Source of the DNA: Thermococcus barossii
GTDB lineage: Archaea > Methanobacteriota_B > Thermococci > Thermococcales > Thermococcaceae
Assembly: GCF_002214465.1 (NCBI RefSeq)
Contig: NZ_CP015101.1
Coordinates: 503,013-567,012, forward strand
Reading direction: 5' to 3'
Length of the DNA: 64,000 bases
The notes below the pieces were generated by a model that saw only the letters and a program-made list of their open reading frames with translations, did not search any database and was not told the DNA's origin. Of this stretch, positions 39,847-42,641 are shown in pieces (the stretch's first letter is position 1; each line of letters starts with the position of its first letter). The translations under genes and the position numbers were made by a program.

Positions 39847-40451
39847 GACGCCTCCTTGTAGTCCCATCTCCGCCCGTCCTCCATTATCCATATCTTGACG
39901 CTTATGAGCGGGCCGACGGCCTTCTCCCTGCTGACGTCCAGGCGGTAGAAGTTCACCGCCATCCCGCGCGGGTGCCTCTCGATGACGCTCAGGACATCGG
40001 TGTTGTACCTGTCGGCTATGCCGAGGAGCGAGCGCTCCTTCCTCGGGACGAACACTCCCCCGGTGAGTTCTGCAAAAACCTGGGCGAAGGCAACGTGGTC
40101 GAGACCGACGCGCTTGGCGGTGGTCACCACGAGGGGCATCTCCTCCCGTATCGGCCTCACGTCCCTGAAACCGATCTCGCGCTGGAGCTTTATGCCGTGG
40201 AGGTATAGGTAGCCGAGGTAGCCCCAGTCCTCGGGATCGACCTTGATGAAGGTCATCTTGAGCGGGTTGCCCTTCCAGACGTTGATTATCAGGAGCCTCT
40301 CGTAGTTCCTGTCGTAGGCCTCCATTAGGAGATCCTGGATTGTTTTCTTGCCCCTCGTCAGGTAGAGGGAGTTGGGGAACACCTTCTCCAGGTCGTGCCC
40401 GAAGCTCCTCGTCCTTCTGGTGGGTCTGTGGGAAGTCGTTATCAGCATCAT
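39810..40451 (-). CDS. Brix-domain ribosome biogenesis protein
   Basis: This 213-residue archaeal Brix/Imp4-type protein begins MMLITTSHRPTRRTRSFGHDLEKVFPNS, the sigma70-like start of the domain, and includes VTTAKRVGLDHVAFAQVF and a basic C-terminal end. It is predicted to take part in ribosomal RNA processing or large-subunit assembly. It sits between rpoP and pcc1 as in many archaeal genomes. ATG 40451 or 40448 are both possible. Confidence 0.9.
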   Translation of the reverse strand: MMLITTSHRPTRRTRSFGHDLEKVFPNSLYLTRGKKTIQDLLMEAYDRNYERLLIINVWKGNPLKMTFIKVDPEDWGYLGYLYLHGIKLQREIGFRDVRPIREEMPLVVTTAKRVGLDHVAFAQVFAELTGGVFVPRKERSLLGIADRYNTDVLSVIERHPRGMAVNFYRLDVSREKAVGPLISVKIWIMEDGRRWDYKEASWLKRKTGPSKE

Positions 40452-40503
40452 GGCCCTCACTCAAAATTCGTTTAAGCGATAAAAGGTTTTCCAAACGAAA
40501 GAA

Positions 40504-40653
40504 TCAGATCGCCTTTACGCGCCTGGCCACCCTCGGCCTGGGCTTGTAGAGTATCTTGCTGCCGCAGTAGGGGCAGCGGACTTCCCTGGTGTTTTCGAGG
40601 TCGAGCTCGACCTCCCTTCCGCACTTTGCGCAGCGGTAAACGGCCATCACCAT
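40504..40653 (-). CDS. rpoP: DNA-directed RNA polymerase subunit P (Rpb12)
   Basis: This 49-residue zinc-ribbon subunit has CAKC (8-11) and CPYC (27-30), ending in a basic tail (KPRPRVARRVKAI). It is part of the archaeal RNA polymerase near the assembly platform. ATG 40653 follows GGGTGATAAAC; ATG 40647, two codons later, is possible. It is second in the L37Ae string. Confidence 0.95.
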   Translation of the reverse strand: MVMAVYRCAKCGREVELDLENTREVRCPYCGSKILYKPRPRVARRVKAI

Positions 40654-40687
40654 GTTTATCACCCTAAAACCAGGTAAAGGAAAGGAA

Positions 40688-40948
40688 TCAGGCCTTGGAG
40701 GCCGTGACACGCTTGGCAACCTTTCCCGCCGGAGTGGTCGGCAGGTAGGCACCGCCGGCGAAGGTGGCGCCGCACTTCTGGCACTGCCATATGCCAGTGC
40801 TTATCCTCCTGACAGCCTTCCTTCCGCAGACCGGGCAGACGTGCTTCTGCTTCATCTTGGCCTCAACGGCCGCGACCCTTCTTCTAATCTTGAGACCGTA
40901 CCTGGGACCGTATCTTCCGGCCGAACCAACCTTAGTAGTCCTTCCCAT
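40688..40948 (-). CDS. rpl37A: 50S ribosomal protein L37Ae
   Basis: This 86-residue ribosomal protein has a basic N-terminus ([24 protein letters not shown]) and a zinc finger, CPVC (about 38-41) and CQKC (about 56-59). GGGGTGATGCTC precedes ATG 40948. It is the first gene of the leftward string that continues through rpoP, the Brix gene, pcc1, pfdB and beyond. Confidence 0.97.
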
Positions 40949-41005
40949 GAGCATCACCCCTAATTATCAACCGATTTTCACGACTGGAGAGTGTTTCCGG
41001 AGACG

Positions 41006-41014
41006 TTTTATAAA
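41006..41014 (-). promoter_or_regulatory. TATA element of L37Ae-rpoP operon
   Basis: Read leftward, TTTATAAAA lies about 60 bp before the L37Ae ATG, predicting a leader of roughly 30 bases with a GGGGTGAT ribosome-binding site. Confidence 0.6.
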
Positions 41015-41024
41015 CCTTTGCCTG

Positions 41025-41691
41025 GAAACTTTGCGGAGCAAAGTTTCATCAAAATGTGTGATTCCTCTTTGAGGCTCCTTTAAAAAGGAATTTCAGCACC
41101 CAATTTAGCCCTTAGAAAGAGGATTTACGGTACCGAGCTTTTCCCATACGGGTTCCACTTAAACCGCGCTCCTACGGAGCGCTAAAAAACTTGAACCCGT
41201 CCAAAAAGCGCTTCTCTAAGAGAATCCACGTCTCAAAAATAACTCCCGGAGAAATCCCCCAAGATACGCCCTTCCAAAAGGAATCATGAATCTTGATCAA
41301 ACTCAACGGGACTATCGTCCCGTGCGTTGAAGCAGAGCTTCAACGTTGCGCAGGAGAACAAGCTTTAGGAAAGCTTGACCAAAGGAGTGCCCTTCTTACC
41401 AACAGACAAAAAATCAATCGTGCACTCCCGGATTAGCGTTAGATGGGGATTCCTACGGATGCCGTTTGTGTAGTGAAACCCTCATAAGAGAGCAAGTCGA
41501 AAAGAAACTCCCTACAATTGCTGAATTTCTGAAAAACGCACCCACTTTTCTGCCAGCGCTCTTTGGGAAGCGAAGCTTCCCGTGGTGTTGAGGCTTTGCC
41601 TCAACATGCGCAAGCAAGGACTGTGAGGGGGGCATTTGAGCTGTCGCCCCCCTGGGGGTCCCGACGTCATCGCAACCCAATACTCGTCGGG
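41025..41691. repeat. Gene-free interval packed with perfect short hairpins
   Basis: The 818 bases between L37Ae and the gene at 41776 hold no credible ORF but many perfect stem-loops. They are at 41025-41047 (10-bp stem, GGA loop), 41166-41182 (7 bp, TAC), 41306-41323 (7 bp), 41325-41345 (9 bp, AGA), 41359-41377 (8 bp, AGG), 41565-41581 (7 bp, GAA), 41586-41606 (9 bp, TTT), 41626-41653 (8 bp, longer loop) and 41660-41691 (7 bp, 18-base loop). The 41166 hairpin is nested in an outer stem of ACGGGTTC (41148-41155) and GAACCCGT (41193-41200). Stem sequences differ from one another. Could be structured RNA, a decayed transposon end or inserted palindromes; unresolved. Confidence 0.6.
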
Positions 41692-41775
41692 CACTGTATT
41701 GTAGTCACAGGTAATAAAAGACTTTTTCGGCCTAAAGCTAATAAACGTTGATGGGAACTGAACCGTGGTGATAAA

Positions 41776-42087
41776 ATGAATCGCCTGTGGGGTTCGGTGC
41801 TTCCTCTGGTTTACGTCTTTCTATTCGCTGGCCTCATGAGACAGTACGAAGTGCAGTTCACCCCTGTTGTTTACTGGGCCTTCATTGGAGGAATAGTGTT
41901 CTCCTCTGCCCTTGGCATATACCTCGACGGAAGAATTCCCGGAAGGAGCGTCCTTGTTTTCGGGCTGTTCACACTTATCTGGCTTATCCTCGGCCTGAAA
42001 TACCGGCCCGAGGGCAATTCATACGTTTTCGCCGGCATTCTCATAACATTCGTCCTGTCAATCGTTATGCAGAAAATTGGCAAGTAA
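41776..42087 (+). CDS. Small integral membrane protein, hypothetical
   Basis: This 103-residue protein has four hydrophobic segments (about 7-24, 30-48, 55-72, 80-98) and only short loops, with GIYLDGRIPG between the second and third. The ATG follows GGTGATAAA. No family recognised. It stands between the hairpin-rich interval and a soluble hypothetical gene 53 bp downstream. Confidence 0.65.
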   Translation: MNRLWGSVLPLVYVFLFAGLMRQYEVQFTPVVYWAFIGGIVFSSALGIYLDGRIPGRSVLVFGLFTLIWLILGLKYRPEGNSYVFAGILITFVLSIVMQKIGK

Positions 42088-42140
42088 AAGAACGCCAAAG
42101 CCTTATAACCCTCTTCTCAACTCAAAGTTGGGTGCAGACC

Positions 42141-42641
42141 ATGGCGGGAACGATAAGCAAGATAATCCACTTCCGCGATGAGGAGGAGTTTCTTGATGAT
42201 ATGACCGAGATAATGGAGCGCTTCTCCTATCTGGCGAGCAAATACGGTCACAATCCCGTTGAAGGTGTTCTCCTGTGGGACTATATCGGCATTCAGGACG
42301 AAGAAGGCGTGAAGATTTTCCGGGTGGGCGAGTTTCCCTACTTTGAGGGAACGTTAAAGCTTGACCTCGAAACGCTCCGCGTCATGGAGCGCTACTTCGA
42401 CGAGATGGAAAGCAAATGGGACGAGCTCACCGTCGAGGAGATAAACTACTTCGTCGAGATGCTCAACGAGGCCCTCGGCGAGCAGCGCGTTTACTACGAC
42501 GCCTACTCGCTCGGCTTGGACAGAAACACGGCCTACGTAATCCTCAACCTCGTCTCGCTCAACTACCTCGAGAGCGTTCTCGACGGAGGGGACAGGGAGA
42601 TATTTGAGGAGGCCGTTGAACTGCTGATGAGGTACCTCTAA
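42141..42641 (+). CDS. Conserved hypothetical protein, acidic and helical
   Basis: This 166-residue soluble protein is rich in Glu and Asp with predicted helices throughout, plus VEGVLLWDYIGIQDEEGVKI, which looks like strands. ATG 42141 follows GGTGCAGACC with TATA-like CCTTATAACC about 35 bp upstream; a longer in-frame upstream reading overlaps the membrane-protein gene and is rejected. No family or active site recognised. Confidence 0.75.
   Translation: MAGTISKIIHFRDEEEFLDDMTEIMERFSYLASKYGHNPVEGVLLWDYIGIQDEEGVKIFRVGEFPYFEGTLKLDLETLRVMERYFDEMESKWDELTVEEINYFVEMLNEALGEQRVYYDAYSLGLDRNTAYVILNLVSLNYLESVLDGGDREIFEEAVELLMRYL

Follow-up and report, generated by a model that had tools for sequence, protein, structure and literature searches.

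The window analyzed here is a stretch of 64,000 nucleotides from the genome of Thermococcus barossii (G000 below), and within it the interval 40970-41770 is flanked by the L37Ae gene (minus strand, 40688-40957) and an open reading frame on the plus strand (41776-42087). Neither this open reading frame nor the one at 42141-42641 (plus strand) has a Pfam match; the latter recurs at the corresponding position in most of the L37Ae loci compared. Inside the interval the open reading frames are short and overlapping, with at most 75 amino acids, and a coding region was dropped as a reading for that reason.

Six perfect hairpins in the interval combine a 3-nt loop with a stem of at least 7 bp (41025-41047, 41166-41182, 41325-41345, 41359-41377, 41565-41581, and 41586-41606), and one further perfect hairpin has a 4-nt loop (41306-41323). 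By comparison, 100 dinucleotide shuffles of 40970-41770 gave a mean of 0.07 and a maximum of 1 for loop-3 hairpins, and a mean of 0.29 and a maximum of 3 for loops of 3-8 nt; the remaining 63 kb of the window hold just two loop-3 hairpins with stems of at least 7 bp. The hairpin cluster reported in the initial annotation is thus real. Its count of nine hairpins, however, requires criteria looser than those that yield the six loop-3 hairpins and one loop-4 hairpin, such as admitting a stem of the sRk28 gene described below (GGGGGGC/GCCCCCC near 41627-41655, with a 12-nt loop). One hairpin is indeed nested in an 8-bp outer stem (ACGGGTTC/GAACCCGT, surrounding 41166-41182), and four do share GC-NNN-GC at the loop, with loops GGA, AGA, GAA, and TTT. 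Two checks that accompanied these claims also bore out: the 801-base interval folds far better than shuffled sequence on both strands (z -5.3 and -4.9), and both homologs and compensatory changes were found in other Thermococcales, for sRk28 as well as for the repeat.

A single large structured RNA over the interval was rejected because the parts of the interval have separate histories among species. The interval is three things, namely an sRk28 gene, two tandem copies of a repeat, and two double-hairpin modules, arranged as follows (the repeat features have no assigned strand).

41025-41358: repeat copy 1, type 1, distal to sRk28, with an interrupted sRk28-side end hairpin and relatives in the own genome.
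41025-41047: end hairpin A of copy 1, GAAACTTTGC-GGA-GCAAAGTTTC, a perfect 10-bp stem.
41042-41072: left arm of the terminal inverted repeat, pairing with 41273-41303 (31 nt, 77% complementary).
41148-41200: central stem-loop B, the outer stem given above around the inner hairpin GCGCTCC-TAC-GGAGCGC (41166-41182).
41273-41303: right arm of the terminal inverted repeat; the same arm occurs in the own-genome copy at 398930-398961.
41304-41345: 42-bp double-hairpin module 1, interrupting the end hairpin on the sRk28 side of copy 1; its hairpins are 41306-41323 and 41325-41345.
41359-41623: repeat copy 2, type 2, adjoining sRk28, aligned with same-locus copies in G059, G001, and G032 and with none in G027.
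41359-41377: A-type end hairpin of copy 2, CAAGCTTT-AGG-AAAGCTTG, kept in L017 and L012.
41449-41464: what an internal deletion has left of copy 2's central stem-loop; near-intact in L017 (GGCGTCC-TTC-GGACGCT).
41552-41623: C-type end of copy 2, GCCAGCGCT ... TGCGCAAGCAAGGACTG, abutting the sRk28 3' end.
41561-41606: 46-bp double-hairpin module 2, interrupting the C-type end of copy 2; its hairpins are 41565-41581 and 41586-41606.
41621-41692, minus strand: non-coding RNA gene with two stem-loops, identified as sRk28 with covariance model R1; 5' end at 41692, last stem ending at about 41626.
41710-41721, minus strand: predicted TATA-like box TCTTTTATTACC, located some 18-29 nt ahead of the sRk28 5' end.

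About twenty Thermococcus genomes carry near-identical versions of the approximately 70 bases of the RNA gene at the same locus. Between species, stem 1 shows a compensatory C-G to G-C change (CCCGACG/CGTCGGG to CCCGAGG/CCTCGGG) and stem 2 a coordinated G/C swap. The R1 model matches 77 of 94 Thermococcales genomes, once in each matching genome and in all six genera. In G064, which we take to be P. abyssi GE5, the match lies at C1:527724-527797 on the minus strand. The published P. abyssi sRk28 occupies 527697-527833 on the same strand with a 5' start at 527798 (PMC3124441), within 1 nt of the start of the R1 match. On sequence grounds we therefore identify the RNA at 41621-41692 (minus strand) as the known sRk28, given that model, coordinates, strand, and 5' end agree with the published locus. 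The covariance-model search advised in the initial annotation, run with Rfam, returned no known family at the locus, and sRk28 itself has no Rfam match in the window, neither at E 1 nor at the gathering score. This RNA was likened to preQ1 riboswitches by its discoverers, and in T. kodakarensis it is a small orphan transcript (PMC4247193). Whereas P. abyssi sRk28 was placed in the leader upstream of PAB1992, with no promoter seen (PMC3124441), in most of the Thermococcus compared it diverges from the next gene and is preceded by a TATA-like box at about -25 and followed by the repeats. TTTTAT or TTATAA stands at the matching place in nearly all fetched Thermococcus copies, and the surroundings differ. 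G019 differs from the other genomes that carry sRk28 here: at L022 / L081 the gene lies in the opposite orientation with respect to L37Ae, and no element stands behind it. The reading of the cluster as structured RNA therefore applies only to its last 70 or so bases (sRk28, minus strand); the other hairpins are DNA repeats.

The anatomy of the repeat was derived from twenty species at the sRk28 locus and nine loci of the own genome. The unit is a palindrome of about 290 bp with hairpins at its ends and a nested stem-loop in the middle, and its parts follow the order end hairpin A, arm ATCAAAGTTCGTGATTCC, central stem-loop B about 140 bp inwards, inverted arm, and second end. End hairpin A has the form [CG]AAACTTTGC-nnn-GCAAAGTTT[CG], with compensated variants such as CTTCGC/GCGAAG, CTTTTGC/GCAAAAG, and AAGCTT/AAGCTT. 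Type 1 copies have A ends on both sides and type 2 copies one A-type and one C-type end, the latter of the form CAGC-CCTTTGC..GCAAAG-CGCTGGCGGAAA. In stem-loop B, an outer stem encloses an inner CGYCC-nnn-GGRCG hairpin. Two such copies in tandem make up 41025-41623. The initial annotation was correct that the stems differ in sequence, but they are different parts of one composite repeat, pieces of which recur at about 15 places in the own genome; hairpins of the CTTTGCnnnGCAAAG type occur at about 20 places, as against 2 for a reversed-pattern control. Copy 1 has an uninterrupted counterpart, CAAACTTCGCgcagGCGAAGTTTG, at the same locus in G027 and G004 (L019 and L025), where module 1 is absent; the module is present with compensated stems in L030, L023, and L020. 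Similarly, module 2 corresponds to a clean 46-bp gap in G059, in which CCGCCAGCGCT is joined directly to TGCGCAAGCAAGG, and an 87% identical piece of its region lies behind tRNA-Pro (genome positions 399142-399236).

Remains of an IS200/IS605 end with its guide RNA, as proposed in the initial annotation, are a very unlikely source of the interval. Hairpin-rich ends are in its favor, and IS605 pieces do exist in the genus, but Y1 transposase (PF01797) is absent from the own genome, as it is from G014 and G018 and from 46 of 61 genomes in total, which makes mobilization by IS200/IS605 or RAYT enzymes unlikely. Furthermore, the HgcC family, which we take to be the TnpB guide RNA, has no match in 40400-42200 even at E 1. 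This negative is informative because the same Rfam library flagged a sub-threshold HgcC piece in G014 (L159:1403-1518, minus strand; 37 bits against a cut-off of 50), inside a repeat copy behind tRNA-Trp; the piece resembles a fragment of an IS605-type end that was inserted into the repeat. An IS200/IS605 end or TnpB guide RNA was accordingly rejected for the own genome on the strength of these searches.

Stem-loop B was used to follow the family with a hand-seeded covariance model, R2, which gathered 117 matches at E 0.001. A few of the seeds had been edited by hand, with one or two loop bases trimmed or adjusted, and the covariation figures come from untouched matches at 60 distinct places. 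Over these places 96.0% of the pair cells are paired, compared with 86.4 on average and at most 88.4 in shuffles, and 110 cells are changed on both sides, compared with a shuffle maximum of 54; both figures lean upwards because the copies share ancestry and were aligned to fit the structure, and the excess is still large. Stem-loop B covaries strongly. R2 matches occur in 43 of 45 near-complete Thermococcus genomes, at 9 to 55 each (palindromic copies being counted on both strands), in none of eight Pyrococcus genomes, and in small numbers elsewhere in the family. G022 and G060 are near-complete Thermococcus genomes with zero R2 matches. Rather than being confined to the strain, a case that the initial annotation had considered, the repeat family is genus-wide. 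The window's own B is divergent and does not reach E 1 with R2; it was assigned by alignment to relatives, and it is 83% identical over 47 nt to the own-genome copy at 440666-440712.

Covariation and low folding energy are what one would look for if the elements were transcribed, as trailer-encoded or independent small RNAs, and 55 small orphan transcripts without a known function are on record for T. kodakarensis (PMC4247193). We nevertheless consider this reading unlikely, given that the repeats have no Rfam match, that no fixed promoter was seen in the element, that stem-loop B is nearly palindromic and scores on both strands, and that copy number and orientation vary freely.

Placement was counted in three complete genomes with 44 tRNAs each, namely the own genome G000, G014, and G018, and the window's own B was added by hand to the cluster list. 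A tRNA 3' end lies within 250 bp of B for 8 of 11, 9 of 17, and 12 of 19 clusters, whereas random rotation of positions put a mean of 0.08-0.17 elements near tRNA 3' ends; 1, 1, and 0 clusters lie near tRNA 5' ends. An Rfam scan placed most of the remaining clusters at tRNA-Trp (which carries an intron sRNA and was missed by the tRNA model), at C/D box sRNAs including sR36, or among the outer elements of a chain leading up to a tRNA, and some further clusters adjoin sRk28. In all, 10/11, 16/17, and 17-18/19 clusters are found at the 3' end of a stable RNA. The exception in G000 is a cluster behind a truB-like gene (L172), and those in G014 and G018 (L160 and L166) lie beside a Methyltrn_RNA_3 (RNA methyltransferase) gene; there may be an unannotated small RNA at L160 and L166. 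The family is therefore almost confined to the 3' ends of stable-RNA genes, that is, tRNA, C/D box sRNA, and sRk28 genes. In a census of the own genome, an element end directly follows the CCA in about 17 of 39 tRNA-unit 3' ends, some of the elements being degraded, with a spacer of 0-12 nt between the encoded CCA and the element end. Either an A-type or a C-type end can face the RNA gene, and the elements occur in both orientations and often in chains; C-type ends stand directly behind the CCA at the own tRNA-His and tRNA-Arg and at L188 and L191.

A second kind of hairpin cluster also occurs directly behind tRNA and sR36 3' ends, at L213 (G000:C1:829550-829910), L169, L170, L173, and L191. 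Its stems are AAGGGGGC-nnn-GCCCCCTT, GTGGGGC-nnn-GCCCCAC, and GGGAAAC-nnn-GTTTCCC, and in places it stands between the RNA gene and the repeat element.

Copies behind different tRNAs of one genome are far more alike than copies behind the same tRNA in different species. In the own genome, the tRNA-Ile and tRNA-Val copies are 86% identical over 310 bp, the Arg2 and Val2 copies 82% over 308 bp, and the His, Arg, and Pro copies 85-89% over 137-157 bp. When the own copies are compared with those of G018 behind the same tRNA, by contrast, His, Arg, Pro, and Val1 give no match or at most 52 aligned bases, and Arg2 gives 72%. This likeness within the genome therefore argues that copies spread or convert there rather than descending quietly with their tRNAs. 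The Ile/Val similarity continues into the tRNA genes, and gene conversion between similar flanks could homogenize the copies of a genome. At the sRk28 locus, a single copy is present in G027; in the window and in G059 another copy stands between that copy (or its equivalent) and sRk28, and G001 has a third, nearest sRk28. This one locus suggests that additions take place at the 3' end of the RNA gene and that the inner copies of a chain are the younger ones. Gain or loss is also evident from copy 2 and both double-hairpin modules, which are missing at the same place in relatives. No target-site duplication was recognized and no clean whole-element empty site was found, the orthologous flanks of G000, G018, and G014 being too diverged for alignment. 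Several central stem-loops, that of copy 2 included, are eroded, so many copies may be dead.

In L016 and L021 the interior between the end hairpins has been lost, as is expected of palindromes. Such internal deletions, together with loops that are free to vary, reverse-complement forms included, would suit an origin by mutation alone, through template switching, hairpin-templated correction in a neutral spacer, and palindrome deletions. This origin is quite improbable, however. Different genomes share homologous elements made of several parts at a fixed spacing, and the dispersed copies already weaken the case for this origin; moreover, the outer stem of B pairs over 30-40 nt, and placement is specific to stable-RNA genes.

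The main rival holds that the elements are parts of the host, RNA hairpins of the 3' flank that serve in termination, processing, or insulation and are selected for correct 3' ends or for separating convergent genes. The near-exclusive 3' placement at 0-12 nt past the mature end, the strong structural covariation, and the T4 run that some end hairpins have 10-14 nt past the CCA all fit such a role. We regard it as doubtful, since more than half of the tRNA units of the own genome lack an element, Pyrococcus and two near-complete Thermococcus genomes have no matches, both orientations are in use, and copies do not follow orthologous tRNAs. Furthermore, the T run is not conserved (CTTCGC variants), whereas the pairing is.

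We consider it probable that the repeat is a non-autonomous mobile palindromic element that is targeted to the 3' ends of stable-RNA genes and recognized in folded form. The family itself, its conserved structure, its placement, and the likeness of copies within a genome are observed; active copying, a folded substrate, and a polarity of stacking are what we infer. A putative enzyme would copy the element by recognizing its folded ends, as single-stranded DNA or RNA, and the need to be recognized for copying would put selection on the fold. Insertion behind a stable-RNA gene would be harmless, and each new copy landing at the 3' end of the gene would push the older copy outwards, giving rise to chains. 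No transposase or other mobilizing enzyme was found for the repeat, and none of the fetched loci contains a long element sharing its ends. Insertion of small palindromes, one of the interpretations offered in the initial annotation, comes closest to the preferred reading: the interval does appear to be built from inserted palindromic repeats, but the unit is an element of about 290 bp together with modules of 42-46 bp, and the site is specific, on the 3' side of a stable-RNA gene. Overall, that annotation is partly supported.

A bolder proposal, which we put forward tentatively, is that the repeat represents a new class, a gene-free archaeal mobile element recognized by its fold and inserted behind stable-RNA genes via an enzyme, possibly targeted by the 3' end of the RNA gene or by its transcription. 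Stable-RNA genes are known landing sites of integrases and of some eukaryotic retroelements. In the open-access literature, with subscription papers outside the search, we found no earlier description of this repeat family or of a small gene-free element that sits genus-wide almost only behind tRNA, C/D sRNA, and sRk28 genes. A mobile element would point to a new transposition machine in genetically tractable organisms (T. kodakarensis), and a functional one would instead expose a new layer of stable-RNA 3'-end biology. The family is also a warning to read hairpin-dense spacers behind Thermococcus RNA genes as repeats and not as new non-coding RNAs.

Several known systems resemble the repeat in part. 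Integration at a tRNA attachment site was rejected: an attachment-site integrase is expected to duplicate the tRNA tail on the far side of the element, and stretches of up to 1200 nt behind ten tRNAs of the own genome contain no copy of the tRNA 3' end longer than 9 nt. REP/BIME sequences, moved by RAYT/TnpA-REP, are likewise tandem intergenic hairpin units with structure kept better than sequence, but RAYTs are Y1 transposases and the element-rich genomes G000, G014, and G018 have no Y1. Repetitive hairpin-forming elements reportedly invade intergenic spacers in sponge mitochondria; they are alike as spacer-invading hairpins and differ in belonging to another domain of life. Dictyostelium TRE3 and yeast Ty3 share the tight positional preference for RNA genes, a safe site, but these tRNA-targeting elements are autonomous eukaryotic retroelements, whereas the Thermococcus element has no coding capacity. 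MITEs are likewise short, non-coding, and dispersed, with terminal inverted repeats such as those of type 1 copies (31 nt, 77% complementary); the family is multi-copy, and its unit of about 290 bp lies below the MITE size limit of approximately 600 bp. Unlike MITEs, the repeat has no apparent parent transposon in the fetched loci and no recognized target-site duplication, its type 2 copies have ends that are unlike each other, its central stem-loop covaries, and its placement at stable-RNA 3' ends is strict. sRk28 has been described before; the repeat family we would class with the palindromic, MITE-like repeats, as a variant that is unusual in its choice of site.
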